From Deltaproteobacteria bacterium (GTDB lineage Bacteria > Myxococcota > XYA12-FULL-58-9 > JABJBS01): 45,243 bases of DNA. This document shows, in pieces, positions 24,898-41,247 of this stretch; the first letter of the stretch is position 1, and each line of letters begins with the position of its first letter. The position numbers and the translations under genes are program-made. The notes under the pieces were generated by a model that was given only the letters and a program-made list of their open reading frames with translations, was not told where the DNA came from and did not search any database. The DNA lies in contig JABJBS010000055.1 in the NCBI GenBank assembly GCA_018668695.1, forward strand, positions 1-45,243, written 5' to 3'.

Positions 24898-24898
24898 A

Positions 24899-25462
24899 TT
24901 AGCTCCCTACCTTAAACGTCGTGACCGTAAGTTCAGCATCCACAACATCTTTCCTGTACGGTTTATTGAGCTTGAGCCGTTTTACAATCACGATGCCCCT
25001 TGATTGCTCAAGACGCTTGAGAAACTCTTGGAGCCTGTCGATAGACAAGCCGGAGACCCGTAAATCAACGCGAGACTCTATGACACCATCTGGCCCCGGT
25101 TCACCGTTTTCCGGCTGTAGCCTTCCTATCGCATCCCAACAACCCGCTTGGCGAGCGGCATCTTCCACCACGGTAGAAAGCATCTTCACTTTTCCGCGTG
25201 AGAGATTCGAAAGGCGTTTTTCGCGTTCGGACTGACGCGCTTTATATTGCCCCTGCAAAGCAAAGAGCTCTTGAAGCTGCTCTGTTTTTCGTTTGATTCG
25301 GTGCTCTGTTTTATCCACCGATGTGCTCAGCCACATCCCCATCGAAAACACGATGACGAGAGCCGTCACCACGCTACCGCCAAGCACCAGGACTTGCTCA
25401 CGCTGGGTGAGCCGACTGAATGAAAGACGAATGGAATCTAAACCTGTGTCAAATCGAGCCAT
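24899..25462 (-). CDS. gspM: Type II secretion protein GspM
   Basis: 187 residues from ATG 25462, chosen because GGGAGGAAAG stands just upstream and the codon follows the gspL stop by one base; a longer frame begins at 25495. One membrane helix (VLVLGGSVVTALVIVFSMGMWL, about 20-42) is followed by a short coil (TEHRIKRKTEQLQELFALQ) and a ferredoxin-like periplasmic domain (ESRVDLRVSGLSIDRLQEFLKRLEQSRGIVIVKRLKL), the expected GspM layout. GspM pairs with GspL in the inner-membrane platform. Sequence identity is always low in this family, so order and topology carry the call. Confidence 0.88.
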   Translation of the reverse strand: MARFDTGLDSIRLSFSRLTQREQVLVLGGSVVTALVIVFSMGMWLSTSVDKTEHRIKRKTEQLQELFALQGQYKARQSEREKRLSNLSRGKVKMLSTVVEDAARQAGCWDAIGRLQPENGEPGPDGVIESRVDLRVSGLSIDRLQEFLKRLEQSRGIVIVKRLKLNKPYRKDVVDAELTVTTFKVGS

Positions 25463-25463
25463 C

Positions 25464-27083
25464 TTACTTTCCTCCCTTGTCGCCAAGGTTTGCAACAGTT
25501 GACTGCGTACCCGGCAAAACCCCTGGAGGGCACTTCATATTTACCGCCAGGTTGAACTCAACTCGGCCGGAGTTTTTCGTTCGTCGTTGGCGCGAAACTT
25601 CTGCTTCTTCAACGCACGGATCTTTTTTCAATGCCGCAACCACCTGCTCGGTCGTTTCAAAATTAGCTGCCTCGCCCTTAGCTGTGATTTTTTCAGATTC
25701 ACCGCCCCTTGAAGGCAAGCGAAACTCCAACTCAGTAAAGGTCACGTCAGTGGCTGGTGGAATTGTTTTAGAAAACGCCTCAAACATACGAGCAGAGGAG
25801 AATTCAGGAATCACGACCCCATCACCCGCGCCCGCAGGCTGTCGCAGCGTTGCAAGTGCAGCCGTTGGGTCGCAAATCTGACGACCAACTATTTTCTCTG
25901 TCGCTAAACAAAACTCTTTATTCAGCGCCTCTTCTTGCCCATTGACCAACACATAGCGTGTCATCATCGAACCCAGCGCCAACAATAAAACGATGGCACT
26001 CCCAATCATAAAATGGGTGAGGGGACCTCGGTAAAGTTGAAGATCTCCCTGGTACGCAAAATCACCGTGGCGAAAGTTCATCGGCACCGCAGAAGAGCGG
26101 CGTAATAAAGCGAGCACCAACCCTAAAGCCGGCGCATAAGCACTGCCTGGAACTTGGCTCTCTGGCTCAAATCCCTCAAGGGATTCTTTCAAGTTCAGCT
26201 CCACCACATTCACTTCCAACGCCTCGCTCAAAAACCCACAGATCCCATCCAGTGCGGCGATATCGCCGGTCACATAAATGGTTTCTGGCATCAGCGCATC
26301 AGGAAGTGCCTTGAAGGTGGTAAACAAATGCGATGCAAGGCCCTTAAGCGCTGTGCGAACTGCATGCTGAATGCGTACAACGTCGCCCGGGTCCATCGTG
26401 CCGTCACCATCGCCGAGACCAATACGTCTCCAATAATCAGCGGCATGGGCTTCACTAATACCCAGTAATTTCGCTAGGTCTTTTTCAAGCTTACGAGTAC
26501 CGAGCCTCATCGTTCGAGCAGAACGAAGTGTTGCGTTGGAGATTAAAGCTAAATGCGCTTCAGTGTGGCCCATGGATAGAACAGCTGCTCGATCCGCATG
26601 TTCTGGCGGTAAAAGCTCCATTAAAGAGCCGACCGGGGAAGCCACCACGCGTGGCTCAAGACCCGCATCTTTAAACATCGTTAGCCGGCGCTCAAGGCAA
26701 TCTCTCGGCATCAACGATGCCAAAACCTCGCTGCGCGTCGTGCCACGCTCGGTCACCAAATAACTCAGTGCCACATCATCCAAGTTGTAAGGGATCTGAC
26801 CTTCCAGCTCGAAACCCACCGCAGCATCTATCTTTCTCAAATCCCCAAAAGGGAAATCTAAAAGTCGTGCGCTGACCCGGTTGGAATCGCAGGCCACCGC
26901 AATGGAATCAAAGTGACCATCGAGTAACTCTTGAAGCCTTGCCAAAAGTAGCTCGTCAGTTTCCTCTTCTTCTCGGTGAACAGTGACCGTCTTGTTCAAA
27001 CATTGCTTACGCATGGTGGCTTCAACCACCACCGCGTGCGCAACATCACCAGCAAGCTCTATGGCTGCAATACGTTGACTCAT
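25464..27083 (-). CDS. gspL: Type II secretion protein GspL (PilM-like cytoplasmic domain)
   Basis: 539 residues. Residues 1-340 are an actin-like (ASKHA/PilM) cytoplasmic domain: RIAAIELAGDVAHAVVVEA, FPFGDLRKIDAAVGFELEGQIPYNLDDVALSY, ETIYVTGDIAALDGIC. One membrane helix lies near 355-378 (FMIGSAIVLLLALGSMMTRYVLV), then a periplasmic ferredoxin-like domain (FTELEFRLPSRG, VEFNLAVNM). GspL recruits the GspE ATPase to the membrane and binds GspM. The usual gammaproteobacterial GspL is about 400 residues; this longer, PilM-like form fits deltaproteobacteria. It follows gspK by seven bases. Confidence 0.92.
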   Translation of the reverse strand: MSQRIAAIELAGDVAHAVVVEATMRKQCLNKTVTVHREEEETDELLLARLQELLDGHFDSIAVACDSNRVSARLLDFPFGDLRKIDAAVGFELEGQIPYNLDDVALSYLVTERGTTRSEVLASLMPRDCLERRLTMFKDAGLEPRVVASPVGSLMELLPPEHADRAAVLSMGHTEAHLALISNATLRSARTMRLGTRKLEKDLAKLLGISEAHAADYWRRIGLGDGDGTMDPGDVVRIQHAVRTALKGLASHLFTTFKALPDALMPETIYVTGDIAALDGICGFLSEALEVNVVELNLKESLEGFEPESQVPGSAYAPALGLVLALLRRSSAVPMNFRHGDFAYQGDLQLYRGPLTHFMIGSAIVLLLALGSMMTRYVLVNGQEEALNKEFCLATEKIVGRQICDPTAALATLRQPAGAGDGVVIPEFSSARMFEAFSKTIPPATDVTFTELEFRLPSRGGESEKITAKGEAANFETTEQVVAALKKDPCVEEAEVSRQRRTKNSGRVEFNLAVNMKCPPGVLPGTQSTVANLGDKGGK

Positions 27084-27090
27084 GATGCAA

Positions 27091-28272
27091 CTACTCTACT
27101 CTCGCGTAATAAAATTTAGCCTCTTGGGTTTGAAAGACTGCTCGAAATCTCTTCGAAGCATTCCCAACATGACCCTCGGCCTGAATTGTAAACCAAACGT
27201 TTTGTGACTTGTCGCTAAAGCGCTGTGCAAGTTTAGCCTGATCGACCAAACCCACCAGACCCGACTCTGTTAATAATAATTTTAGGGTAGCCACATTAAC
27301 AGGCGTCATGCCCATGGCTCCAAAAGATTTCATTTCGACTAAGAGCGACAGAAATTGAGGGAAGAGAGGCTGCATTACAAACTGCTCAAGCAGCACCCCT
27401 TCTTGCAACGACGCCGCAAGCCCCATCAAAATGACCTCGAGCGATGCGGTACCGAGCTCAATTTGCGCGGTGGCAGGATAGATGGTGACCGTATCCTTAA
27501 GTAAATCATAGAGTGCATCGTCTACCCCATGCACGAGCTGCAGTTCAGCCACGGAATCAAAGGGTGCATTCTTCGCCTCATAAGAATCCTGCAAGTAGGA
27601 ATAATGCCTATCTTCGTCCCCTACCTGCGAACCAAACTCATTTCCATCACGGTCCGTCCAATCCACGATAGCTCCAATAAGCTCTTCGGGAGTTTCAGCA
27701 TGCGTGCCGTTTAAATCGTCTTCTTGGAAATGAGTTTCGAGGCGCGGATCAAGCAAAAGCCCGTAAAGCATTTCCATGGCTGGTTTACCGTCACGAACGG
27801 ATTTTAAAACATTCAGGGAAATCTTTGAGTGTTCGCTTGTGCTCGTTGCGATGCATTCACCAGGAAAAAAACCTTCGGCCGCAACGGATTCTTCAAGATC
27901 TCGCTCCACGGGCTTAAACAAGGCACCCATCAGTCCGCACTCCACCGGGAGCATCTCGAGAATTTGCCCCATGGGCAATTGCCCACCACCTGCTGCCCCA
28001 CCGGCTCCGGTATTGCCCATAAGCATGTTCGCAACCTGGTTGAGCTTTCGAGAGTGACGCAAAATCAGCGCACGAAGACGTAAAGCGCTCAATGCATTGT
28101 ACTCAGCCTGAAGTTCATCGCGTGCGTTGTAAGCTAGCTGCAAATCAACACGGCTGCTGTATTGAAACTCCGTGACCACTGCTGCCACCAAAGTGACCAA
28201 GACGAGGACCATCAGCAACGCAACACCACGTTCACGAGGCGGCTTACGGCGAGATTTAATTAATCTAGACAT
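27091..28272 (-). CDS. gspK: Type II secretion minor pseudopilin GspK
   Basis: 393 residues. The prepilin leader ends RERG and the mature helix starts VALLMVLVLVTLVAAVV; as usual for GspK there is no Glu at +5. The large globular part has the GspK helical module with an HhH-like stretch (FDSVAELQLVHGVDDALYDLLKD). GspK caps the tip of the pseudopilus with GspI and GspJ. Near residue 85 there is a Gly-rich insert (GNTGAGGAAGGG). The start overlaps the end of gspJ by 13 bases. Confidence 0.93.
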   Translation of the reverse strand: MSRLIKSRRKPPRERGVALLMVLVLVTLVAAVVTEFQYSSRVDLQLAYNARDELQAEYNALSALRLRALILRHSRKLNQVANMLMGNTGAGGAAGGGQLPMGQILEMLPVECGLMGALFKPVERDLEESVAAEGFFPGECIATSTSEHSKISLNVLKSVRDGKPAMEMLYGLLLDPRLETHFQEDDLNGTHAETPEELIGAIVDWTDRDGNEFGSQVGDEDRHYSYLQDSYEAKNAPFDSVAELQLVHGVDDALYDLLKDTVTIYPATAQIELGTASLEVILMGLAASLQEGVLLEQFVMQPLFPQFLSLLVEMKSFGAMGMTPVNVATLKLLLTESGLVGLVDQAKLAQRFSDKSQNVWFTIQAEGHVGNASKRFRAVFQTQEAKFYYARVE

Positions 28273-28961
28273 CGCGACCCCGTGATGCCTGGAATGGCCA
28301 TAGCCTGCTGAACGAAGAGGCGTGTTTTCGTCGTAAACTTTTGCTCGTTACCCGCCGAGTCGAGCGCTGTGATTTGAATCTTTACAAAAAGCGGGAGCTT
28401 TCCTTTAAAGTCCATGGAGGTCGAATCCCACTCGTCTTCCCATTCCTTGTCGAGCGGATCGAAAAATTCGAATTCAATATCTAAGACATCCTCAGCCATC
28501 AACTTGATGGAACCACCTTCTTCAGGCTCCTCGTCAATGCGCGCTTGCTCTCGGCGAAACAAGGCTTTTCGGCTGGAATCGTCGGGGTGGCTGTCTACAA
28601 AATAGGAAAGTTCGTTTTGGTCGGATTCATTGGCGTCTGAGCGAATCTTAAAATGCGAAAAACTGGTGAAGTCTAGGCGCATACCATTGGATGAGCGCTT
28701 GCCAAGAAAAATCGTTTTGTTCTGTGGATCTTCACAGTCGCGGTGTTCGGAGAGGAAAGCACTTTGGATCTCTCGGGTCATGCGGAGCATGGACTGACGA
28801 ACTTGGTGGTAATGGTCTGTGACACCAAGCGTTCTTTCGCGAGCATCCACAGAACTTCTTAAAGTACCGAAGCTTAAAGTACCAATCATGCCAAGAATCG
28901 AGACCGCAATCATGATCTCCATGAGCGTAAAGCCTTGTTGCTTGCGCTTCATATGCTTCAT
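28260..28961 (-). CDS. gspJ: Type II secretion minor pseudopilin GspJ
   Basis: 233 residues. Leader MKHMKRKQQG and mature N-terminus FTLMEIMIAVSILGMIGTLSF with Glu at +5. The phrase RQSMLRMTREIQSAFLSEH is the typical GspJ segment after the helix, and the C-terminal half (LDFTSFSHFKI, ELSYFVDSHPDD, LMAEDVLDIEFEFFD, LPLFVKIQITA) matches the family. It belongs to the tip complex with GspI and GspK. It overlaps gspI by four bases (ATGA). A second Met at residue 4 could be the start. Confidence 0.94.
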   Translation of the reverse strand: MKHMKRKQQGFTLMEIMIAVSILGMIGTLSFGTLRSSVDARERTLGVTDHYHQVRQSMLRMTREIQSAFLSEHRDCEDPQNKTIFLGKRSSNGMRLDFTSFSHFKIRSDANESDQNELSYFVDSHPDDSSRKALFRREQARIDEEPEEGGSIKLMAEDVLDIEFEFFDPLDKEWEDEWDSTSMDFKGKLPLFVKIQITALDSAGNEQKFTTKTRLFVQQAMAIPGITGSRCLD

Positions 28962-29602
28962 CGCTTAAGCCCAGTTCCGAGGTCTAAATCGAGCTTAGGA
29001 AGCTTTGAAGGATCGATCGTACTTAAATCCGGCATTCCACCGGCGCCTGCGTTCTGAAGGCTAAAATCTTGTTTCGTTACAAACGCACGCACTTCAAAGC
29101 TTTCTTCGTACTTTCCTACCGGCCACGTGAGCTTGAGTTCAACGAGCCGGATAGAACGACCGATTTCATCGGTAAAGGTGCTGAGCATTCCGCCAAAACC
29201 TTCAACACCACCGAGCATCGATTCGCAATCGGCTGCAGCGGCTTCTGGTTCAACCCCATCTGGTGCAAAGCCAGAGCACATACTTGCAAGGCCGGATAGG
29301 TCTAACTCCACCTCACTCACACGGCTTGTGTACTTGACGTATTCATAACCCTCGTCGCCAAAATCACCTTCTTCTTCAAGGTCACCAACCACGAAGCCAT
29401 CTTCAATGAGCATAGCCTCAAGGTCGACCATTTTGGAACGCGCCAAAAGGGAGGCGATGGTCAGGTCTCGTGACCGCCCTGCACTGTTTACGCTCGATGC
29501 TTGAGACTCCAAAAGTACCGTCAGGCTCATGGCTAAAATACCCAGAGCGATGACAACCTCCAAGAGCGTAAAACCTCGGGTAGAGTTCGTGCGGCGGGTC
29601 AT
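28958..29602 (-). CDS. gspI: Type II secretion minor pseudopilin GspI
   Basis: 214 residues. Leader MTRRTNSTRG, mature FTLLEVVIALGILAMSLTVLLES, then SVNSAGRSRDLTIASLLARSKMVDLE as in GspI. It is much longer than gammaproteobacterial GspI (about 125 residues): an acidic, Gly-rich insert with two cysteines (GDLEEEGDFGDEGYEY; ASMCSGFAPDG; ADCESMLGGVEG) sits before the final strand block RSIRLVELKLTWPVGKYEESFEVRAFVT. A C-terminal Pro/Leu tail follows. It overlaps gspH and gspJ by four bases on each side, so translation is coupled. Confidence 0.93.
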   Translation of the reverse strand: MTRRTNSTRGFTLLEVVIALGILAMSLTVLLESQASSVNSAGRSRDLTIASLLARSKMVDLEAMLIEDGFVVGDLEEEGDFGDEGYEYVKYTSRVSEVELDLSGLASMCSGFAPDGVEPEAAAADCESMLGGVEGFGGMLSTFTDEIGRSIRLVELKLTWPVGKYEESFEVRAFVTKQDFSLQNAGAGGMPDLSTIDPSKLPKLDLDLGTGLKR

Positions 29603-30324
29603 GATTTATCACCCTCCACATAGCCCGCGAGAACTTCTGCGCGACCGGTAAGCGACCAGATCTTGATGGTAAAAATACGAGAGTCCGCGTCTTCTAAATG
29701 CACCATAGCGTCTTGGGTGTAACCGTGAGGAAAGAAAATCAATGAAGCTTCACCTTCAGTGATGGGCTGGTCGGAGCCTTCGATCCAAACGTCCATGATC
29801 TTTACGCCTTCTTCAAGCGTAAAACTTTTATCGGTATCCTGAAAGCTTGTTGTACCGCTGCCACCTTGAAGACCACTGATGCCAAATAAAGCAGCCGCAG
29901 CACCGGAGCCCTCTTCGCCTTCTTTGGCTTCTGGCTCATCCCAACCTTCTTCCAAGTTCACGCCGGCCATCATAGCCTCTAAACCGGAACCCATGGTGGT
30001 AGGCGCTTTCGTGGCCGCAACCAGTGCATTACTACCTGGCTCTAGGCGAAAAGTTGTAGCTGAGCGTTGAATTTTGATGACGCCATCTTGGAGATTAAAA
30101 ACCAACCGGTGGGTCTCACCTGTTAGTGCCGCTTCGTCATAGGTGCCTTGAACAGTGGCCGCGAGCATCATGGAAGACTTACGCAGCGATAAACGGGTCA
30201 CGTTGCCGATGGTCGGAATCGCAACCGCGGCAATCAACGCAATGATGGCTAAAGTGATGGTTGCTTCCACCAGAGTAAAGCCGTGGCTGCCGCGGCGAGC
30301 CTTTGCGTTGATTGGCCGAGTCAT
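29599..30324 (-). CDS. gspH: Type II secretion minor pseudopilin GspH
   Basis: 241 residues. Leader ending RRGSHG, mature FTLVEATITLAIIALIAAVAIPTI with Glu at +5, then a GspH-like body (RKSSMMLAATVQGTYDEAALTGETHRLVFNLQDGVIKI ends before an insert). The insert, about residues 110-165, is Gly/Ala/acidic (EEGWDEPEAKEGEEG, AAAALFGISGLQGGSG) and absent from usual GspH. The final part (ASLIFFPHGYTQDAMVHL, FTIKIWSLTGRAEVLAGYV) fits GspH again. It links the major pseudopilin to the tip. It lies six bases after gspG. Confidence 0.92.
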   Translation of the reverse strand: MTRPINAKARRGSHGFTLVEATITLAIIALIAAVAIPTIGNVTRLSLRKSSMMLAATVQGTYDEAALTGETHRLVFNLQDGVIKIQRSATTFRLEPGSNALVAATKAPTTMGSGLEAMMAGVNLEEGWDEPEAKEGEEGSGAAAALFGISGLQGGSGTTSFQDTDKSFTLEEGVKIMDVWIEGSDQPITEGEASLIFFPHGYTQDAMVHLEDADSRIFTIKIWSLTGRAEVLAGYVEGDKS

Positions 30325-30330
30325 CTGAGC

Positions 30331-30819
30331 TTACTCAGCGCTCTTCCAATTACCGATGTCGTCACCGCCGCCTTGAACACCATCTTTGCCATAGCTCATG
30401 ACATCGAATCCGCCTGAATTCTGTGTGCCAGGGTAAATATAAACGAAAGCGTTGCCCCAAGCGTCTTCTGGAATCGAAGTCATAAATGGCTGAACATTAC
30501 CCTTCGGTGCTGTTAAAGCCTGCAGGCCTTCGGCTGTTGAAGGGTAGTTTCGAAAGCTTAGTCGATAGAGCTCAAGGGCATCTGAGATCTGCTTGATCTG
30601 AGTCTTGCTTGTTTCAACTTGCGCATCCTCAAGTCGGCCGAAAACCTGCACACCAACAACACTGGCAATCAAACCGATGATTGCAATAACAACCATGATT
30701 TCAATCAGAGTCATACCGCGCTGAGCGTGGCGTGATGCTTTGTTCATCAACTCGTGGTGCACACCAAGTGAATCGGAGAGTTCGTTGTGCGATTGCTCGC
30801 TTGTCTTTAGTTCCTGCAT
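30331..30819 (-). CDS. gspG: Type II secretion major pseudopilin GspG
   Basis: 162 residues. Mature start MTLIEIMVVIAIIGLIASVVGVQ after QRG, Glu at +5, then QIKQISDALELYRLSFRNYPSTAEGLQAL and the calcium-site C-terminus GKDGVQGGGDDIGNW, both GspG hallmarks. Met replaces the more common Phe at +1. The leader is 35 residues from the ATG at 30819, which has AGAGGA six bases upstream; a shorter 11-residue leader could start at ATG 30747 but that has no clear ribosome site. GspG polymerises into the pseudopilus after processing by prepilin peptidase; no gspO is in the window. Confidence 0.95.
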   Translation of the reverse strand: MQELKTSEQSHNELSDSLGVHHELMNKASRHAQRGMTLIEIMVVIAIIGLIASVVGVQVFGRLEDAQVETSKTQIKQISDALELYRLSFRNYPSTAEGLQALTAPKGNVQPFMTSIPEDAWGNAFVYIYPGTQNSGGFDVMSYGKDGVQGGGDDIGNWKSAE

Positions 30820-30834
30820 GGTCTGTCCTCTTGC

Positions 30835-32064
30835 TTAAATAGCTGAGCTCATTTGGAGAATTGGCATTAAGATAGCGAAGACAATGCTTGCTACCACGAT
30901 ACCCATGACGACAATGATAAGCGGCTCCAATAAGCTCGTCATCGCCCGCAATCGGGAATCGATTTGTACTTCATAGCTTTTTGCGACGTTGTTCAGCATG
31001 GGTTCGAGTTGACCCGATTTTTCACCAATACCGATCATGTGCGTCACGATGGGTGGAAAGTGGCCAGAACGCTTTAGAGGCGCAGCAATGCTGTCACCCT
31101 CTTTGACACAGTCTCGCGCGGTTTCGATAACTTCCAATAAAACGGTATTTTGAACCACGTTTTTAACAATATCGAAGGCCGTTAAAAGGGGCACACCACT
31201 GGCCATCAACGTTCCAAGCGTCTTACAAAATCGTGAGATCGCAACCATTCGAACCAGAGGTCCAAACACTGGAACCGTCAGGAGAAATAAATCCCACTTC
31301 GGTCGCCCTTTTTCCGTTCCGATATATTTACGGCCAAAATAAACCACGAGACCAATCAATAAAATTATCAAGAACCAGTAGTCGATCATGATCTTACTAA
31401 CAGCGATTAAGAATTGCGTGGGCAGTGGCAAGACCATCTTTTGAGATTCGAAAATCTTGGTGATCTTGGGGATGACGAAAACGAAAAGCATCGCGGTAAC
31501 ACCGAGCGCCATCAAGAGCATGATGACCGGATAAACCAAGGTACCGACGAGCTTCGAACGCAGCTCATGCTGACTTTCAGTAAAATCTGCAAGCCGGTCA
31601 AGAACCACATCCAACGCGCCTGAAGTTTCCCCGGCTCGTACCATACTGATGTAGAGCCCGGTAAAGACCTTCGGGTGCTCAGCCAAAGCTTCCGCCATGG
31701 GGGCACCTTCGTTAACACGCTGCTTGACCGCGGCCCAAACGCCTTTGAGAGTTTGGTTCTCCACCTGGTCGATCAACGCGGTGAGTGATTCCACCAAGGA
31801 AATTCCGGCACCCACCAATGTGGATAACTGGCGCGTTGATACCGCAAGGTCTTCCGTAGAAACCTTCTCGGCAAAGAGCTTCACTTGAAAGCTGGCGCCG
31901 CCTTCTTTTTTCTTTTTTGCAGTGGGTCCTGATTCTTTTAAGTCTGTGAGGAAAATACCATCACGGCGCAAAAGCTGCTTAATCGCGCGAGGGTTTTCGG
32001 CCTCTCGAGTACCGCTGGTTGATTTACCTGCGGAATCCATCCCTTTGTATGCGTAAACTGGCAT
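30835..32064 (-). CDS. gspF: Type II secretion inner-membrane platform protein GspF
   Basis: 409 residues, normal length. It opens with the family phrase MPVYAYKGMDSAGKSTSGTREAENPRAI (split here only by reading), has two repeated cytoplasmic helical domains (DLAVSTRQLSTLVGAGISLVESL; ISRFCKTLGTLMASGVPLLTAFDIV) and three membrane segments (VGTLVYPVIMLLMALGV, YWFLIILLIGLVVYFG, PLIIVVMGIVVASIVFAIL). The second domain carries MIGIGEKSGQLEPMLNNVA, diagnostic of GspF/PilC. It anchors pseudopilus assembly and contacts GspE, whose gene ends nine bases upstream. Confidence 0.96.
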   Translation of the reverse strand: MPVYAYKGMDSAGKSTSGTREAENPRAIKQLLRRDGIFLTDLKESGPTAKKKKEGGASFQVKLFAEKVSTEDLAVSTRQLSTLVGAGISLVESLTALIDQVENQTLKGVWAAVKQRVNEGAPMAEALAEHPKVFTGLYISMVRAGETSGALDVVLDRLADFTESQHELRSKLVGTLVYPVIMLLMALGVTAMLFVFVIPKITKIFESQKMVLPLPTQFLIAVSKIMIDYWFLIILLIGLVVYFGRKYIGTEKGRPKWDLFLLTVPVFGPLVRMVAISRFCKTLGTLMASGVPLLTAFDIVKNVVQNTVLLEVIETARDCVKEGDSIAAPLKRSGHFPPIVTHMIGIGEKSGQLEPMLNNVAKSYEVQIDSRLRAMTSLLEPLIIVVMGIVVASIVFAILMPILQMSSAI

Positions 32065-32072
32065 CCCTAGAC

Positions 32073-33827
32073 TTAACCTTCTGCCGTCACACGTAAGACT
32101 TCAGCACTTGAAGTAATGCCCGCTAAAACTTTTTGGGCACCATCATCACGAAGCGTGCGCATACCTTGAGTTTTGGCTTTTTTCTTAATCGTATTGGAGT
32201 CGACATTTTGAAGAATCAACTGCCGTACCTCATCCGTAGGCATCATCAATTCGTAAATACCGAGTCGCCCTTGATACCCTGTTCCCAAGCACGCGGGGCA
32301 ACCTTGGCCGCGCCAAAACTTAGGATTGGGTCCAAGCCTTTCTGGACTGAGGCCAAGCTCTAGGATTTCCTCTTCCGATGCTTCGTATTCTTCCTTACAT
32401 TCGGGGCAGAGCGTTCTCACGAGGCGCTGGGCCAAAATACCGATCACTGAAGATGCAACCAAGAAAGGTTCAACTCCCATATCGACCAAACGGGTAATCG
32501 CGCCGGGCGCATCGTTGGTGTGAATCGTAGACAAAACCAAGTGACCCGTAAGGGCCGCCTGAATCGCAATTTCAGCCGTCTCGAGGTCTCGAATCTCACC
32601 AACCATAATGACATCTGGATCGTGTCGCAGAAACGAGCGCAAACCGTTGGCAAAGGTCAACTTAATTTTAGATTGGACCTGGGTTTGGCTCACACCATCA
32701 AGCTGATATTCCACCGGATCTTCGATGGTGAGAATATTCAAATCAGGGCGGTTGATGGCACTTAGGCACGCATAAAGTGTGGTCGTCTTACCACTGCCCG
32801 TAGGACCTGTTACTAAAATGATTCCGTGGCTCTTTTTGATGAGGCCATTCATTGCGGTGTGCGTGTCTCGCGTAAAGCCAAGGTCGGTTAAGTCCAAGAG
32901 AATCGAAGATCTATCGAGTAGACGCATTGTGATGCGCTCGCCGTAGGCCGTAGGTACTGTCGCCACACGAATATCAACGTCTTTACCCGCCATCTTGATA
33001 CGAATACGACCATCTTGGGGAAGGCGTTTTTCTGCGATGTTAAGCTCAGCTTGAATCTTAATCCGGCTGATGATGCTCGCCTGCAGACGCTTCGGTGGAC
33101 GAATTTTTTCGTAGAGAATACCGTCGATCCGGAAACGGACCACCAAGTCACGTTCGCCAGGCTCGATATGAATATCTGAAGCGTGCTCTTTAATCGCTTG
33201 CGAGATCAGAGAGTTGACCAATCGAATGATTGGCGCCTCATCTTCAGAATCGAGAAGGTCAACCGCTTCCTCGAAATCCTGAGCAAAGGTATCAAGGTCT
33301 TCATCTTCCAAATCTTCCATCGCTGCTGCCGCGTGGGCGGTGCCTCGGTCATAGACTTGGTTGATGGCTTGAATAATTTCCTCTGATGTCGCCAAAGCGA
33401 GTTCAATGGATTCGTCGATTAAATTGGCGAGGTCATCAAGCGCTGCGACCGCGAGCGGTTCAGAAGTCACAACGACAACCGTACCATCTTCTCGCTGAGC
33501 CACGGGTAAGAGCTTAAACTGCTTTGCAAAGTTAATTGGCACCGGCGTGATCAAGTCGTCGGGGACATTTGCGTCATCGATAGATTCCCAAACAGGGATA
33601 TCCAGCTGCTCCCCGAGAGCTTCGAGAAGCTGCTTTTCGGTTATGCTTCGTTGACCAATTAAGATTTCACCTAAGAGACCGCCACGCTCAGTTTGCAATT
33701 CAAGTGCGGTATCGACCACCTCTTGGCTAATTACGCCGCGTGCGCAGAGCAGTTCACCCAGGCGCCGCTCAGAGAATCTCTCCGACGGTTGCAGCACATC
33801 GACCTCAGTTTTTTCCTGAATCTCCAT
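32073..33827 (-). CDS. gspE: Type II secretion ATPase GspE
   Basis: 584 residues. An N-terminal GspE_N/MshEN domain (LLGEILIGQRSITEKQLLEALGEQ) is followed by an acidic linker (EDLEDEDLDTFAQDFEEAVD, about 171-190) and the ATPase: Walker A GPTGSGKTTT (341-350), Asp box ILTIEDPVEYQ, Walker B DPDVIMVGEIRDLETAE, His box LSTIHTNDA, and the zinc-binding CPEC...CPAC module near 485-525. It powers pseudopilus extension as a hexamer at the inner face of the membrane, docked by GspL. The ORF begins five bases after gspD ends. Confidence 0.97.
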   Translation of the reverse strand: MEIQEKTEVDVLQPSERFSERRLGELLCARGVISQEVVDTALELQTERGGLLGEILIGQRSITEKQLLEALGEQLDIPVWESIDDANVPDDLITPVPINFAKQFKLLPVAQREDGTVVVVTSEPLAVAALDDLANLIDESIELALATSEEIIQAINQVYDRGTAHAAAAMEDLEDEDLDTFAQDFEEAVDLLDSEDEAPIIRLVNSLISQAIKEHASDIHIEPGERDLVVRFRIDGILYEKIRPPKRLQASIISRIKIQAELNIAEKRLPQDGRIRIKMAGKDVDIRVATVPTAYGERITMRLLDRSSILLDLTDLGFTRDTHTAMNGLIKKSHGIILVTGPTGSGKTTTLYACLSAINRPDLNILTIEDPVEYQLDGVSQTQVQSKIKLTFANGLRSFLRHDPDVIMVGEIRDLETAEIAIQAALTGHLVLSTIHTNDAPGAITRLVDMGVEPFLVASSVIGILAQRLVRTLCPECKEEYEASEEEILELGLSPERLGPNPKFWRGQGCPACLGTGYQGRLGIYELMMPTDEVRQLILQNVDSNTIKKKAKTQGMRTLRDDGAQKVLAGITSSAEVLRVTAEG

Positions 33828-33832
33828 GTGGA

Positions 33833-36514
33833 CTACTCCTTAGCCTCTTCTTCTTTGGCTTCCACTTCAGGGGCAGCTTCGTCAGAACCCTCTGTCGACT
33901 CTTCACCACTTAATGTCTGAAATTGTGTTTCAGGCGCTGTGCTTTCCTCGCCCTCATCTTGAGGGCTTACAAGTACTTCATCCGAACCGCCGTCACCGCC
34001 ATTTTCGATGCGGCTTTGCTCGCGTTCAACCGCCCGGCCCAAGCGTGCAAGAGGACCCACCTTGCGGCGGTAATCGATGTGCGCTCGGTATTGCTTTTGG
34101 CGACCGTAATAATCGGCTGTGAATTCTTCGTGCTCTTCCATCTTACGCTCGAGAATACTTTGAAAATCCTCAACGCCTCGCACGATGTATGGCGTTAACA
34201 CTAAAAGCAGGTTTACTTTTTCAACTTTCTTGGTGCGCGTCTTAAAGAGCCAACCGATGATGGGAAGGTCACCGAGGAGCGGGACCTTACTTTCACCCTC
34301 AGTCACGTTGTCTCGCATCAAGCCGCCCAAGACGATGGTCTGTTGATCCTCAACGACAACAACACTCTTAATAGAACGATTTGAAGTCAGTGGAGTTTCA
34401 GTTGTTTTATCGATGCCCGTCACATCTTCAATCTTCTGCTCAACTTCGAGCCTAATTCGGTTTCGCTCATTGATTTGTGGAGTAATCGAAAGCTTTAAGG
34501 AGACATCGATTCGATCAACCGAAGAGAACATACCGCCGCCGAGTGAACCCAACGAACTGCCAAGTGAACCCAGGCCACTCGAACCTGCCGCGCCGCCCAG
34601 GGCACCTGCCAGAGCACTGCTGCCAAGTGAAGTACCACGGCGAAATGGTACCTTCTTACCAACTTCAATCGTTGCTTCCTCGTTATCGGTTGTCAGAATA
34701 TGAGGCGTAGAAAGAACCTGAGCGTTGCTGTCTACTTCCAACCATTTCAGAATCATACCGAAACTTGGAATGGTCAAATCACCAATCGTGAGCTGCTTGC
34801 CTACGATACCAGCCATCGAACCGCCCGCGAGACCAAGCAATCCAGTTGGGCTTAACGCACCAGCAACCGTGCTGCTGATACCTTCACTGCCCGCTGACCA
34901 GGGACCACTTTGAACAAAACCGAGTGACCCATCGCCGTAGCCGCCCAAATCATTGGCACCAAATTGAACCGGTGTATGCCAACTCACGCCAATATCATTG
35001 TCATTACTGTTAGATACTTCGAGGATCGCCGCCTCGATATAAACCTGCGGCCGAACTGTATCCAGTCGTTCGACTAACTTCTTAAGTGCACGGTAGTCGT
35101 GTGCACTCGCCACAACAATCAAACTGTTCGTGCTCTTATCAGCGGTGATTTTAATTTCGCCTTCAAAGAGCTGCGCGCTTTTAGGAGCAGATGCGCCCTT
35201 GCCTTTTTTACCAGCCCGGCCCTTCGAAGTGGATGAACCTTGAGTAAGACTCGACAAAGTAGATGCCAAATCTTCTGCCTTGGCATTTTCCAAGTAGTAA
35301 ACGTGGATACGGCCTTGCTCTGCTTCAGAAATAGGAACGTCCAACCTAGAGATGAGACGACGAATGGCTTCAAAGCTGCGTTTGTTGGCCTTAATGATAA
35401 TTTGATTCGTTCGTTCGTCGGCGATAATTTTTGATATCTGCACCGATGCTTCATCACTAGAACTAGACTTGGCTTTGCTCGTTGGAGATTTACGTGCGCT
35501 CTTTGACTTTGTAGCGCCTCCGCCACCGGATACATCAAACACTTGAGTAATCTTGTCGGCCACTTCCTGTGCTGTAGCGTATTCAATTTGAACTATCCGA
35601 AGCTCATCATCAAAGCCAGGCTGATCAAGCGCTCTAATGATTCGCTTAATTCGGGCAATATTTGGCGCGTACTCACTTAAGATGATGGCATTGCTTGGTT
35701 GAAAAACCGTAAGCTCACCTTCTTTAGAAACTAAGGATTTAAGAACGCTGCTGATTTGATTGGCTTCCGTGTGCATCATCGTGATGAGCATCGTGACCAT
35801 CTGCTCATTAAAAGACGGGCAAACATCATCAGGGCCAACACAGGTGGGAATTGGCTTTTTAATCGCGTTTTTGGATTCTATCAATTTGTAGAATTTACCG
35901 GTCTTCACAACCGTGATTCCATTGATACTTAGAGCCGATAAAAATACTTGGTAAGCCTCTGCTGCCGTAATCTTAGTGGGCGAAAGAATCGTAATCTCTT
36001 GGCTTTTAAGCTTTTCAGGAATGATGAAGTTTTTACGCGTCATGTCGGAAATCGCTTTCACGATGTCCATGATCTCCGCCTTAGAGAACTCGAAAGAGAA
36101 ACGCCCTTTTTTGGCGCGCTCTTTGTAGTCGATGTCACCACCATCTACATCAGATCTTGGCGATGATGAGCGGGAGCGACTTGAAGACTCCGAGGACTTG
36201 GAAGACTTGGACGATTTTTCGTCCTTCACCGCTGCACGGCTTGCCGCCGCGGCAGCTTCTGCAGTGCGCTTCATCTCTGCCGACTTGCCAACACGGGGCC
36301 GCTTCGATTTAGGAAAGCTCTTTGGAACCGACCGAGCCTTCATCAGCTGGCGGCCAAGCTGCACCTTTTCCTTAGCTTTTTTCTTGCTCGCTTCCTCGTC
36401 ATCAGACTGCGCAACCCAAGTACTGGTATCAACAGAACTCTGCGCTGCCATCACATCACTTGTGGCAAACATGGTCAAAACAATCAGCATCACCAAACGT
36501 GGCGTATTCAACAT
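33833..36514 (-). CDS. gspD: Type II secretion secretin GspD
   Basis: 893 residues from ATG 36514, which is followed by a signal peptide (LVMLIVLTMFATSDVMAA) and preceded by GAGAGG; a longer frame from 36607 lacks sense before the signal. A Lys/Arg/Ser-rich linker (SSKSSESSSRSRSSSPRS) leads to N0 (FSFEFSKAEIMDIVKAISDMTRKNF ... in parts), then N1-N3 domains and the secretin gate domain with GLMRDNVTEGESKVPLLGD and LLLVLTPYIV. N1 is interrupted by a basic insert (ATKSKSARKSPTSKAK) and N3 by another (GSSTSKGRAGKKGKG). The C-terminal 70 residues are strongly acidic and may be a disordered extension or pilotin site. It forms the outer-membrane pore. Confidence 0.95.
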   Translation of the reverse strand: MLNTPRLVMLIVLTMFATSDVMAAQSSVDTSTWVAQSDDEEASKKKAKEKVQLGRQLMKARSVPKSFPKSKRPRVGKSAEMKRTAEAAAAASRAAVKDEKSSKSSKSSESSSRSRSSSPRSDVDGGDIDYKERAKKGRFSFEFSKAEIMDIVKAISDMTRKNFIIPEKLKSQEITILSPTKITAAEAYQVFLSALSINGITVVKTGKFYKLIESKNAIKKPIPTCVGPDDVCPSFNEQMVTMLITMMHTEANQISSVLKSLVSKEGELTVFQPSNAIILSEYAPNIARIKRIIRALDQPGFDDELRIVQIEYATAQEVADKITQVFDVSGGGGATKSKSARKSPTSKAKSSSSDEASVQISKIIADERTNQIIIKANKRSFEAIRRLISRLDVPISEAEQGRIHVYYLENAKAEDLASTLSSLTQGSSTSKGRAGKKGKGASAPKSAQLFEGEIKITADKSTNSLIVVASAHDYRALKKLVERLDTVRPQVYIEAAILEVSNSNDNDIGVSWHTPVQFGANDLGGYGDGSLGFVQSGPWSAGSEGISSTVAGALSPTGLLGLAGGSMAGIVGKQLTIGDLTIPSFGMILKWLEVDSNAQVLSTPHILTTDNEEATIEVGKKVPFRRGTSLGSSALAGALGGAAGSSGLGSLGSSLGSLGGGMFSSVDRIDVSLKLSITPQINERNRIRLEVEQKIEDVTGIDKTTETPLTSNRSIKSVVVVEDQQTIVLGGLMRDNVTEGESKVPLLGDLPIIGWLFKTRTKKVEKVNLLLVLTPYIVRGVEDFQSILERKMEEHEEFTADYYGRQKQYRAHIDYRRKVGPLARLGRAVEREQSRIENGGDGGSDEVLVSPQDEGEESTAPETQFQTLSGEESTEGSDEAAPEVEAKEEEAKE

Positions 36515-36527
36515 CCCACTACCTCTC

Positions 36528-36995
36528 TCATCGTACCAACGAGCAGCGAATCTTTTGGTTCCCTTTATGGAGAACCACACCACTCGAATGTATTGCCCCG
36601 AGCACAAAGCTCCCGGCAGGCGTATTCAAAACTTGTTCTAAATGAACGAGACGGGTGTCATCGTTCACTGAAAGCATCGCGAAGGAATCAGCCATTGTTT
36701 CCGCTTCTACAATGGCACGGACTTCTAAGGGGCATGTTTGTGCTTGAACCTTAGAAGGTTTTTTCTTTGGCACTGGAGCGGGTGCCGTCGACTTTTTTTG
36801 TAAATCCATTGGCACTTGAGCCAGTGGTAAAATTGCGAGGGTGTATTCGCTCTCTAAAGTTTGCACGCTGGTATCGACGGACATCGCAACCGTAGACACA
36901 GCGGTCCCTACTGGCTCATTGGCAAATCCCGGAATCTCACTTCCAAGACCTGTTAAAGCGCCGATGCAGAGGAGTATGCGTAGAGAGTCGTGCAC
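36528..36995 (-). CDS. Exported protein with a GspC homology-region-like domain
   Basis: 155 residues from GTG 36995. Residues 1-25 look like a signal peptide (LRILLCIGALTGLGSEIPGFA). After a linker with VPKKKPSK comes a domain from Cys88 to Cys151: CPLEVRAIVEAETMADSFAM ... KIRC. It lines up by eye with Cys110 to Cys177 of the adjacent GspC, which begins CSLPISVRATLVSDNPAWSI and ends HYERC: same flanking cysteines, VRA core, S-(F/I)-A-M strand, similar spacing (63 against 67 residues). It has no PDZ and no permanent anchor. The gene fits between gspC (three-base gap) and gspD (13-base gap). I infer a duplicated, anchorless secretin-contact domain; a pilotin-like or other helper role is an alternative. 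Confidence 0.7.
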   Translation of the reverse strand: MHDSLRILLCIGALTGLGSEIPGFANEPVGTAVSTVAMSVDTSVQTLESEYTLAILPLAQVPMDLQKKSTAPAPVPKKKPSKVQAQTCPLEVRAIVEAETMADSFAMLSVNDDTRLVHLEQVLNTPAGSFVLGAIHSSGVVLHKGNQKIRCSLVR

Positions 36996-36998
36996 GTT

Positions 36999-37970
36999 TT
37001 ATCGCCCAATCGCATAGTTCATCGTCATGGCACGGCCACGGCGTTGAATGTCGACAGTGATACTCGAGCTGTCTTTAAGTTTTTGGTAGATTTCCAAAGC
37101 CTTATCAGGGCTGTTCATTTCGTGCCCGTTGACACTTTGAATGACATCACCGTTTCGTAGCCCGATCTTGGAATAAATACTTCCAGGCTTAATACTGAAA
37201 AGCTTAAAGCCATTGGGCTTACCATTTTTGAAGCTTGGAACGATGCGTGCCTTGGTAGCCACTTCGCTAAGGTTATTCAGTACACGGTCGATCTCTGAAC
37301 CTTCGATATTGTAATCGGTCTCAGAAACTTTAGTAACGCCCTTGCTGCGGTCGCCGTCGTCATCTTTGACCTTGCTGGTGCTCTTCGAACTCTTAGGCGA
37401 ATTACGACGCCCAGCTTTTGGCGATTCCGCATCAGCCAGGCAACGCTCGTAATGGCTTGCCCTGCGAACAATAATTTCACGGCTACGAACTTCCACAAGT
37501 TCAGCATCATCTACAACCAGGTTATTGCCCGGACGAATGCTGTAAGCTTCAACATCGCGAGATGAGTTGTTGTAAATCATCGCAATGGACCATGCGGGGT
37601 TGTCTGAAACCAAGGTGGCTCGAACCGAAATCGGTAAGCTGCAGCTCTTCACATCTGTTTCATCAAACTCACCGGCTTCACTGGCCTCGGAGTCTTCGGG
37701 TACATCAACCACCGGTTGGAGGTTTTCGCGCTTGAGTGCCATGAGGTTTCGCTCTGCCATTGAGCTAAAGCCTGCTTTTCTGGAGGTTATGCCTTTTCGA
37801 GACTTGCCGCTGGTTCCTAGATTTTGGTTTGCGTTGGGAAGAAGCCTAATTTCCTCGGCTACCACCGCATTGACCGCACCGCCCACAAAATACGAGCCAA
37901 GTGCAATAAACACCAAGTTCAACAACCAGCCATTGTTTTTTAAATAGGCTGCAATGCGTGCCGTAACCAT
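36999..37970 (-). CDS. gspC: Type II secretion protein GspC
   Basis: 323 residues from ATG 37970; the open frame reaches 38063 but the extra 31 residues are polar and would bury the membrane anchor. One helix at about 14-34 (GWLLNLVFIALGSYFVGGAV) is followed by a linker, the periplasmic homology region (Cys110-Cys177, SLPISVRATLVSDNPAWSIA), a Ser/Lys/Asp linker, and a PDZ domain (KLFSIKPGSIYSKIGLRNGDVIQSVNG). GspC links the inner platform to the N0 domain of GspD. It is the first gene of the secretion operon and lies behind a predicted sigma-54 promoter. Confidence 0.92.
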   Translation of the reverse strand: MVTARIAAYLKNNGWLLNLVFIALGSYFVGGAVNAVVAEEIRLLPNANQNLGTSGKSRKGITSRKAGFSSMAERNLMALKRENLQPVVDVPEDSEASEAGEFDETDVKSCSLPISVRATLVSDNPAWSIAMIYNNSSRDVEAYSIRPGNNLVVDDAELVEVRSREIIVRRASHYERCLADAESPKAGRRNSPKSSKSTSKVKDDDGDRSKGVTKVSETDYNIEGSEIDRVLNNLSEVATKARIVPSFKNGKPNGFKLFSIKPGSIYSKIGLRNGDVIQSVNGHEMNSPDKALEIYQKLKDSSSITVDIQRRGRAMTMNYAIGR

Positions 37971-38084
37971 GAGGCGACTTCTTTCTTCAAACCTCAGCTG
38001 CCGAGACCATCTCGACGCATCTTCAAACCCTGAAGCGCCTTGCCATATTCCAGACATGAACATTCCAGTGTTGGGAGGGGTAAA

Positions 38085-38598: not shown

Positions 38599-38997
38599 AT
38601 GTCCAGTTATCTTACAGCAGAAGAATTCAGTGCATTCATGACAGACGAGAGCACCGAGGGGCCGCAGGCGCCGGAAAAGCCGCACTTGGTCGCCGTTGCC
38701 GAGCCCGCAGTCGTGGTAACTGAAAAGCCAGCGACAGTCGCAAAACCCATCTCGTTGACGCAACTGCCGCCTCGCCCCATGGCGACCCCCGCGGTTGCTG
38801 TTGCCACCGGTGCTTGTAGAACTGAGCCCACACACGATCCAGGCGCTAAGCCCAACACCGGCTTAAATCTTCGACTTAATGATTACCAACTGGAATTGAT
38901 TCGAGAACTGGCCGCTCGTGAAGAACGCTCGATGCAGCAGGTTATCCGCCGAACGTTGATTCCGGCCATTGAGCAAGCTCTAAGCTGCGAAGATTAA
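38599..38997 (+). CDS. Ribbon-helix-helix DNA-binding-like protein
   Basis: 132 residues from ATG 38599, which has GGAGGGG nine bases upstream; a start at 38569 is less likely. The N-terminus is a short conserved-looking element (SSYLTAEEFSAFMTDEST), then a Pro/Ala/Val-rich linker of about 65 residues. The C-terminal 40 residues fit a ribbon-helix-helix fold: strand NLRLNDYQ, helix LELIRELAAREE, turn RSM, helix QQVIRRTLIPAIEQAL. Such proteins bind DNA as dimers and often regulate their own promoters. Its TAA overlaps the stop of the convergent ATPase gene in a TTAA. Confidence 0.72.
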   Translation: MSSYLTAEEFSAFMTDESTEGPQAPEKPHLVAVAEPAVVVTEKPATVAKPISLTQLPPRPMATPAVAVATGACRTEPTHDPGAKPNTGLNLRLNDYQLELIRELAAREERSMQQVIRRTLIPAIEQALSCED

Positions 38998-40127
38998 CGT
39001 GAAATTCTTTGGCGGTACCAGTCGTTCCAGAGCATGCTTTTAGCCTGCAATACGTATTGGCCATCGCGCATCGCTCTCTCAACAACTGAGCAAGCAACTA
39101 AAAAATCTGCAAATTCTTTAAGCGGACGAAGACCCACCTCGCGCTCCGCTTGTTTTGCAGTACAGCCGTATTCGCCCATTTCCATAAGCACCTGCATCAA
39201 TGCGTGCTCCGGCGCTGCGTAAGAGCCTCGGTAATGAACCCCTCGCCCGCGATCGAAGGCTTGCCAAATATTTTCAAAAAGCGGTTCCAACCGCATGGAT
39301 GCGTTGTCTGCCGCAGCTCGTAAATTACGCACTAAGTTGTATTCGATGATCTCATCTAGAAGTACGTTGAGAAGGTATGGGTGATTGCCCGTTAAATAGG
39401 AGATCTCTTTAATTAGCCGTGCATTGGCTTCAGGAAGCATCTCCCGCACCATCATGGCTGCTTCGTCTTCTTTCAATGCGCCCAAGCACTGCTGCTGTAG
39501 TTTCTTCAATTCTGGCATTTTCGAATCAAGAATAAATTCACGAAACTCTCGGTCGCCCGCAAAAACAAGGCTCACCGGCGACCAATCCTCAGACTGCTTC
39601 AACAACTTGAATAAAGGCTCCAGCGCTTCCATGCACTCAGCCTTCGCAAAAACTTCAGAACCATCAAACATAAGTGCGAAATGACACCATGCTTCCGTGC
39701 CACGCAGACCCGCCCACGTTTTAGCCAGAGAGGTCTCAAGCTCCTGCCAACCATGTTGCCCCGCCCTTCGAAAATCGGGCTTTTTCAATTCAACAGCGCC
39801 TGCACCACCTCGAGCATGGGTATCCAATAAAGCCGCACTGAGAGCGTCCCAAATAAGACTTGGAAGTAATGCCGCCCGGCCGCCAAGCAGCGATAGATCG
39901 ACGATAACCGGAACCGTTTTGATTCCCTGGTATAGCGGGGTAAATAAGTCGTACTGATTTTGTCTTAGTTCTTGCAGAAACGATGTCTTGCCCACCTGCG
40001 GACCACCCATGAGCGCCACAGATTGACCGCGCTGAATGCAATTCAGAACACGCCTTAATTCGCCCGTGCGGCCATAAAATCCTGAGGTGCCACCAACTTG
40101 GCGGTCACAAATGGGTAGAGCGCTCAT
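38994..40127 (-). CDS. STAND-like P-loop ATPase
   Basis: 377 residues, soluble. The N-terminal phrase FYGRTGELRRVLNCIQRGQSVALMG leads to the P-loop GGPQVGKTS (41-49); the Walker B strand is HFALMFDGSEVF; a sensor-like VSLVFAGDREFREFI and the NHPYLLNVLLDEI element follow, as in ATPases of the archaeal ATPase/STAND branch. The C-terminal 90 residues look like a winged helix (EHALMQVLMEMGEYGCTAKQAEREVGLRPLKEFADFL). Members act as switches rather than motors; the partner here is unknown. It ends the minus-strand run proline dehydrogenase, Cys-rich protein, TPR protein, ATPase, 69 bases after the TPR gene. Confidence 0.8.
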   Translation of the reverse strand: MSALPICDRQVGGTSGFYGRTGELRRVLNCIQRGQSVALMGGPQVGKTSFLQELRQNQYDLFTPLYQGIKTVPVIVDLSLLGGRAALLPSLIWDALSAALLDTHARGGAGAVELKKPDFRRAGQHGWQELETSLAKTWAGLRGTEAWCHFALMFDGSEVFAKAECMEALEPLFKLLKQSEDWSPVSLVFAGDREFREFILDSKMPELKKLQQQCLGALKEDEAAMMVREMLPEANARLIKEISYLTGNHPYLLNVLLDEIIEYNLVRNLRAAADNASMRLEPLFENIWQAFDRGRGVHYRGSYAAPEHALMQVLMEMGEYGCTAKQAEREVGLRPLKEFADFLVACSVVERAMRDGQYVLQAKSMLWNDWYRQRISR

Positions 40128-40196: not shown

Positions 40197-40820
40197 CTAG
40201 AATCCGTTGGCCACAGCACTAAAAAGGTCTGCGCCAAGCACATCTGGACCCAGCTCTTTGGCTTCGTCCAAACAATCTTTAGCCGACTTTAAATCACCTT
40301 CATCAACCCAAGCTGTTGCCAGAGAGAATAAATGCTGGCCCAAAGTTTGGTCTTTGTTCGGACGACATTGATCGATCAGGGATTTGAGCTGTTTGATACG
40401 CTCCGTGCGCACCCGGGTCAGCTCATCCTTTTCAGCCTCAGCTGCATGGATCGTTTCCATAAACGCTAAAGCAGTAACCGAATGATCACTCGGAGATTCC
40501 GTGAACCCTACTCTGCGCAACTCAAACAGAGCCTTCTGACCGCGCCCTTGATGAAAAAGGCAAATACCCAGGGAGGTTCGAGCCGCCAAGGACCAGTAGG
40601 GATGCTTTTGTTTGGCCGCAGCCTGAAAGTGGGTCACCGCTTGTTCTAAATCTCGTAAATGAAAGAGACAATGCAGCCCGACTTTATAACCAGCTTCAAC
40701 AGCTTGCGCGGTATCGGAAAACTCAGCGACGATGACTTGTCTGGTTTTCCACATCCCCTCAACATCGCCCGCAGCCTCTTGTTCAGCGAGTTCTTTTAAA
40801 AGGCCTTCTAAATCAGCCAT
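40197..40820 (-). CDS. TPR-like protein
   Basis: 207 residues from ATG 40820, which has GGGAG six bases upstream; the open frame begins earlier at a TTG. Helical pairs with TPR spacing are visible: GLLKELAEQEAAGDVEGMWK, HFRDLEQAVTHFQAAAKQ-like unit LRDLEQAVTHFQAAAKQKHP, LAARTSLGICLFHQGRGQKAL, and LFSLATAWVDEGDLKSAKDC. No signal or membrane segment, so probably cytoplasmic and a protein-protein adaptor. Its start overlaps the end of the Cys-rich gene by eight bases, so the two products are likely made together. Confidence 0.78.
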   Translation of the reverse strand: MADLEGLLKELAEQEAAGDVEGMWKTRQVIVAEFSDTAQAVEAGYKVGLHCLFHLRDLEQAVTHFQAAAKQKHPYWSLAARTSLGICLFHQGRGQKALFELRRVGFTESPSDHSVTALAFMETIHAAEAEKDELTRVRTERIKQLKSLIDQCRPNKDQTLGQHLFSLATAWVDEGDLKSAKDCLDEAKELGPDVLGADLFSAVANGF

Positions 40821-41247
40821 TTCGATCTCCCACTTCAATGCCAAGCTCTACTTTAAGACGCTCAAGAATCTCAAAATACTCTTTTTGTTGGTAACTCTTA
40901 TTAAGGATATGAAACTCACATCCGACCAGCCCAACACAGCCAATGCAGTGATGACAATCGGCGAGATCGACGCAATGGATGAGATAAGCACTGTCTACAC
41001 AATGTCGGCAATCTTGAAGATACGCGCTGCTATGACAACTCTCGCAATTTTTGCTCCAAGTTAGGCCTGTGCAATTTGTTAGCTTTGAGCTGTGGGTGCA
41101 GCGGTAAGAGTTCGTCGAGTCCTCGCAAAAACTGCAGTGAGTACAACCCTGCAAGCCAGTGGATTGTACGCACTGGATATTGCTGCTGCCCTCATCGGCG
41201 CTTCGCTCTAAATCGCGCAGACCGCGTAATAACTCATCAACATTCAT
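40813..41247 (-). CDS. Cysteine-periodic repeat protein
   Basis: 144 residues with 15 Cys, all between about residue 26 and 108, at spacings of 3, 6 and 9. Short repeats such as LTNCTGLTWSKNCESCHSS, YLQDCRHCVDSAYLIHC and HHCIGCVGLVGCEFHILNKS suggest a small right-handed beta-helix or a metal-rich stack. The end, ILNKSYQQKEYFEILERL, resembles the N-K-x-Y-x-x-x-E-Y ending of Cys-rich proteins from several uncultured bacteria, which I know only as uncharacterised. No signal peptide, so it is probably cytosolic, where cysteines may bind metal rather than form disulfides. It lies 33 bases after proline dehydrogenase and overlaps the TPR gene. Confidence 0.75.
   Translation of the reverse strand: MNVDELLRGLRDLERSADEGSSNIQCVQSTGLQGCTHCSFCEDSTNSYRCTHSSKLTNCTGLTWSKNCESCHSSAYLQDCRHCVDSAYLIHCVDLADCHHCIGCVGLVGCEFHILNKSYQQKEYFEILERLKVELGIEVGDRNG

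Follow-up and report, generated by a model that had tools for sequence, protein, structure and literature searches.

The gsp operon of the window and the gene between gspC and gspD

The window, i.e. the whole stretch of 45 243 nucleotides that was analysed, carries a type II secretion system (T2SS) operon on its minus strand, with an additional gene, orf155, in the slot between gspC and gspD. The features of the locus are the following:

36999–38063, minus strand: gspC, of the GspC_delta type (anchor, homology region (HR) with its own Cys pair, PDZ domain; NF041515, E = 3.8e-85, 286 bits against a cut-off of 150)
36528–36995, minus strand: orf155, the extra HR-domain gene (155 amino acids plus stop, GTG start)
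36906–36995, minus strand: putative N-terminal export signal of orf155, residues 1–30 (signal peptide or short anchor; by eye and Kyte-Doolittle hydropathy only)
36810–36851, minus strand: conserved motif ahead of the domain, orf155 residues 49–62, SEYTLAILPLAQVP (ortholog alignment; YGLxVVxxPxPP in most orthologs)
36531–36734, minus strand: predicted HR domain of orf155, residues 88–155, Cys88 to Cys151, seven predicted beta strands (AlphaFold2, PDB fold match, hhalign)
33833–36514, minus strand: gspD, the secretin (TIGR02517, E = 1.8e-162), with an N0 domain at residues 142–210 (PF21305, E = 7.1e-17), the expected partner
23926–33827, minus strand: the rest of the operon, gspE, F, G, H, I, J, K, L and M, and a GspN/AsmA-like gene (ORFs and gene order)

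Homologs of gspE, F, G, H, K and L occur in the same order in relatives, and these genes were named by order and recognition. GspM was identified through PF04612; the GspN-like gene, which has no Pfam match, was called by position and appearance only. Upstream of the operon lie genes for an AAA_16-like ATPase (38994–40127, minus strand) and a TPR protein (40197–40844, minus strand); a relative of the ATPase is found about 7 kb from gspC in genome G002 (L018:16358–16999). Another gene of the window (40813–41247, minus strand) codes for 144 residues, Cys-rich and repetitive in the middle part, without a Pfam match.

The start of orf155 follows the gspC stop by 3 nt, and its end precedes the gspD ATG by 13 nt. 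Its GC content (0.50; 0.46 at third positions) is close to that of the neighbouring genes, and it is present in a single copy in its own genome. The ORF translation agrees with the original prediction of a 155-residue product with cysteines at positions 88 and 151 and the motif CPLEVRA. That the ORF is spurious was ruled out by seven orthologs sharing one slot.

A signal peptide followed by a Lys/Pro linker had also been proposed. Signal peptides were judged here by Kyte-Doolittle hydropathy and by eye only. On this basis, the N-terminus is signal-like, with a hydrophobic segment from residue 7 (ILLCIGALTGLGSEI; most orthologs are similar), but modestly so (best 15-residue mean 1.79). The hydrophobic segments of the orthologs are short, anchor-like in two (G005 and G006) and cleavable-looking in the others; no lipobox was seen by eye in orf155. 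The Lys/Pro linker is peculiar to the window genome, the linker being variable among the orthologs. What is conserved ahead of the domain is the YGLxVVxxPxPP-like motif, with a mean column conservation in the ortholog alignment of 0.59, compared with 0.29 in the linker that follows. A pattern search found no such motif in any other predicted ORF of the gsp loci of the order.

The HR domain, its distribution and its origin

As judged from profile comparisons and a predicted fold, the C-terminal ~70 residues of orf155 are a GspC-type HR domain. The GspC_delta model (NF041515) aligns residues 59–150 with profile positions 70–160, the HR stretch (E = 8.5e-4). This match, at 19.1 bits, is below the family cut-off of 150 and covers only those positions out of 311; four of the seven orf155 orthologs match the model. 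When an HR-only HMM was run over 4032 ORFs, the orf155 members appeared at E-values of about 0.5–15, too weak alone, so that profiles on both sides of the comparison were needed. With hhalign, the orf155 domain (7 sequences) aligned to 96 GspC HRs with a score of 27.4 (P = 2.7e-5); column shuffles gave a mean of 9.2 and a maximum of 19.0 (0 of 300 reaching 27.4), and the reversed alignment gave 11.7. Against the GspC HRs of the order itself the score was 24.6, again above all shuffles. The probability with whole proteins was only 7%.

The AlphaFold2 model (built with six sequences) has a pLDDT of about 90 over residues 91–155 and contains seven strands, in the same order as in the model of the GspC HR of the window. 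The top-ranking Foldseek match in the PDB is 3oss_C, a GspC HR bound to GspD (TM by target 0.84, rmsd 1.5, probability 1.00), and PilP, the PulC HR, LspC and GspB (4wfw) are also among the top ten. A modest best E-value (0.018) is to be expected with so small a domain, and the high-probability matches are all HR structures. When the orf155 profile was run against PDB sequences, no HR was hit, only a repeat protein (weakly) and KaiB; the PDB search with the GspC model of the window was dominated by PDZ matches and was uninformative on its HR.

Six residues are invariant in the seven orf155 proteins (Cys88, Pro89, Arg93, Phe105, Ile135 and Cys151). The best conserved segment is that of strand 1 (residues 88–97; mean 0.74 versus 0.49 for strands 4–7). 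It was noted originally that GspC of the window has cysteines at 110 and 177 (the numbering of an alignment starting at the second Met), an HR starting with CSLPISVRA and an S-(F/I)-A-M strand in common with orf155, and we find the same: CSLPISVRA...WSIAMI with the Cys110–Cys177 pair in GspC corresponds to CPLEVRA (Cys88)...DSFAML in orf155. Such a pair at both ends of the HR occurs in all eight GspCs of the lineage; most GspCs outside it are without the pair, and some have cysteines nearby.

The order is represented by eight genomes, mostly metagenome assemblies. Seven of them (the window genome, G001, G002, G004, G005, G006 and G007), spanning five families, have orf155 in the slot between gspC and gspD, and it is directly 5' of gspD in every carrier, the two genes being 4 to 13 nt apart or overlapping by 22 nt. 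The gene recurs at this slot in six of the seven other genomes surveyed. The remaining genome, G003, has no orf155; there, gspC is followed by gspD after 13 nt. Both genes are intact there, from which it appears that orf155 is dispensable in places. No ortholog was found in the rest of the 195 Myxococcota genomes with a profile of the seven orthologs, and almost all of the other Myxococcota inspected have gspC immediately next to gspD.

Phylogenetic analysis of the concatenated GspC, GspD and GspE sequences recovers the lineage as one clade (100/100). G001, a carrier, splits off first, leaving the other six united at 88/94, and G003 pairs with the window genome (93/92); in none of the bootstraps were the gene carriers grouped together. 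A tree of GspD alone has the same first split (99). Since G003 groups with the window genome and G001 branches first, the simplest reading suggested by these trees is that orf155 was present ancestrally and was lost in G003; alternatively, there may have been a second gain.

In the HR tree, all orf155 proteins fall into a single clade (100/99), which joins the GspC HRs of the lineage to the exclusion of 31 other GspC HRs at 100/100. The tree covers orf155 and GspC HRs; since it has only 74 columns and the orf155 branch is long (2.24 changes per column), the exact attachment point is unsure. The junction with the lineage's own GspC HRs points to orf155 as the probable outcome of an old, incomplete gspC duplication, made early in the lineage, in which the anchor and PDZ domain were lost and the HR was kept. 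The original proposal, a second HR domain related to that of the neighbouring GspC, is therefore supported by the profile comparisons, the predicted fold, the trees and the gene order. Of the two findings that would have spoken against it, an unrelated predicted fold and absence of the gene from this locus in all close relatives, none was obtained.

Possible role and comparison with known HR proteins

By its sequence, orf155 is not itself a GspC: it resembles the delta type (NF041515; HR structures 3OSS, 2LNV and 6HCG) in HR sequence and fold, in the VRA of strand 1 and in the Cys pair of the lineage, but it has no PDZ domain, ends at the HR, is 155 rather than about 330 amino acids long, scores far below the family cut-off and co-exists with a complete GspC. 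It was stated at the outset that a protein of this form is not known among the standard Gsp components; this was wrong. GspB/OutB is a T2SS component that consists of an anchor and an HR only. With an affinity of about 10 uM, its HR, which has the same fold, binds the N0 domain of GspD more tightly than the GspC HR does, and it aids secretin assembly (PMC9239104).

The likeness of orf155 to GspB/OutB/ExeB (T2SSB, PF16537; 4WFW) lies in the link to T2SS, the N-terminal hydrophobic segment, the linker and the single HR without PDZ, and it extends to the fold (Foldseek probability 0.97). The two differ in that GspB is encoded beside gspA or gspS, whereas orf155 is between gspC and gspD in 7 of 7 carriers. 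In addition, orf155 has a Cys pair and neither a clear anchor nor a peptidoglycan-binding extension, both of which GspB uses; and GspB has been described only from gamma- and betaproteobacteria, orf155 being from a Myxococcota order. PF16537 is not among the Pfam matches of the seven orthologs, and a scan of all genomes of the order with this model gave nothing at E ≤ 0.1; assignment to GspB by family model was rejected. The better T2SSB matches in small-genome Myxococcota (G046 and G191) look like PilP, being located between pilN/pilO-like genes and a secretin.

PilP (PF04351; 2LC4, 2IVW) is likewise small, exported and disordered in its N-terminal part, and its HR-fold domain reportedly interacts with a secretin N0. 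It differs in being a lipoprotein encoded with pilus genes, and a separate PilP is present in all eight genomes of the order. The orf155 orthologs have no Pfam match to PF04351, and a PilP origin was discarded because no homology to the PilP of the order was detectable (hhalign 10.5, with 103 of 300 shuffles as high).

With the pilotins GspS (PulS/OutS, AspS), orf155 could share the task of secretin targeting and assembly. These are lipoproteins of a fold unrelated to the HR. The families PF09691 (PulS/OutS) and PF16549 (AspS), which do not cover all possible pilotins, had no match in the order. These comparisons of sequence and gene order set orf155 apart from GspB (in family model and gene context), from PilP and from the known pilotins; by analogy, it probably works like GspB. 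No description of such a gene was found in open-access papers.

We give a modest preference to a reading in which orf155 would be a free-standing HR component of the T2SS of this lineage, derived from GspC and acting as a GspB-like, N0-binding factor in assembly or scaffolding of the secretin. The protein would probably be exported to the periplasm, where a Cys88–Cys151 disulfide would probably clamp the beta-sandwich. In GspC–GspD crystal structures, HR strand 1 runs antiparallel to N0 strand 1 (PMC3169554); by analogy with the GspC HR, strand 1 of orf155 (CPxEVRAIV) would pair with the first strand of GspD N0. One orf155 HR per N0 would hold secretin subunits during assembly, scaffold the N0 ring, or both, and GspC would make the other, dynamic N0 contact. 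This role is favoured because strand 1 is best conserved, GspD has a clear N0, the gene directly precedes gspD in all carriers, the HR of GspB has the same fold and binds N0, and no T2SSB, PulS/OutS or AspS match exists in the order. The contact surface may nevertheless have drifted, given that the pairwise identity of the HR is only 35% among orf155 orthologs, compared with 50% among GspC HRs. The lack of a conserved anchor or peptidoglycan-binding part and the absence of the gene from G003 likewise weigh against this role.

The roles suggested originally (stabilising, regulating or competing for the N0 contact, or replacing a pilotin) are plausible. A free HR could, instead of aiding assembly, be a structural part of the running machine which fills the N0 sites out of reach of GspC (15 N0 domains versus 6 or 12 GspC). 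A GspC-derived domain encoded with tight spacing in the same operon would suit this, as would the C12/C15 mismatch with unoccupied N0 domains discussed in PMC9239104. However, most T2SSs, including that of G003 in the order, manage without orf155, and we regard this explanation as unlikely. Similarly, it seems distinctly unlikely that the HR has lost N0 binding and now binds N1/N2, GspL/GspM or a substrate, perhaps through the YGLxVVxxPxPP segment: the long branch separating orf155 HRs from GspC HRs and the restriction of that motif to orf155 among the predicted ORFs of the gsp loci are consistent with such a change, but the most conserved element is strand 1, the one that pairs with N0 in GspC. 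A third idea, close to the competition and regulation suggested originally, is that of a diffusible competitor which displaces the GspC HR from N0 and so gates secretion. The fold, and probably the binding edge, are the same as in the GspC HR, and the contacts made by the GspB and GspC HRs are thought to be mutually exclusive (PMC9239104); the gene nevertheless has a fixed place inside the operon, between gspC and gspD, and shows nothing that would point to its own regulation, which makes a regulator improbable. Finally, it is scarcely credible that orf155 is orthologous to GspB, or a recruited PilP, in spite of the shared architecture and the Foldseek matches to both, given the family-model, PilP-profile and taxonomic results above and the 100/100 junction with GspC HRs (in a tree of orf155 and GspC HRs).

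If the preferred role as a GspB-like N0-binding factor is taken further, orf155 could have evolved into a counterpart of GspB independently, with part of a duplicated gspC becoming a dedicated N0 partner. Myxococcota would then have made several experiments of this sort (the PDZ-only duplicate, second complete GspC and N0–PDZ chimera described below being others), with the gspC–gspD junction as a recurrent site of adaptor invention from the docking domains of the machine itself; this wider interpretation is tentative, and we hold it to be quite possible. Were it true, a second secretin-binding HR protein would have arisen at least twice (GspB elsewhere, orf155 here), and T2SSs would seem to benefit from an occupant of the N0 ring other than GspC. 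As a small, separable tool, orf155 would also help to explore the effects of N0 occupancy, including the question of how 15 GspD are reconciled with 6 or 12 GspC. For annotation, a hypothetical protein encoded between gspC and gspD would likely be part of the secretion machine.

Other variants of gspC and gspD domains in Myxococcota

Several other domain duplicates were encountered. Between gspC and gspD, L079 (1397–2218, plus strand) encodes a chimera of a GspD-type N0 (PF21305, E = 7e-8) followed by a GspC-type PDZ. Another N0–PDZ chimera (L122:3623–4357, plus strand; PF21305, E = 2.2e-13) is located outside a gsp operon, and six genomes of one Myxococcota family (f8; G009, G024, G030, G033, G036 and G041) have a protein that matches the N0–PDZ chimera over at least 200 residues. 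Also located between gspC and gspD, L134:3176–3835 (minus strand) encodes a GspC duplicate that is reduced to the PDZ domain and begins with a signal-like stretch. The ~70 residues at its end are almost the same as the PDZ of the GspC next to it, and its N-terminal part is almost the same as the beginning of the adjacent GspD reading frame; these near-identities suggest a recent local duplication or an assembly effect. The same slot holds a second complete GspC (HR and PDZ) in L090 (5058–6089, plus strand) and a 259-residue protein with PDZ-like stretches in L100 (4480–5259, plus strand); in L095 (2401–3318, plus strand), a second GspC-like gene with HR and PDZ is upstream of gspC. As for GspD itself, the TCKNF segment of N0 has its Cys in most outgroup GspDs, and this residue is absent in all GspDs of the lineage in the alignment (TRKNF, TQRNF and similar).
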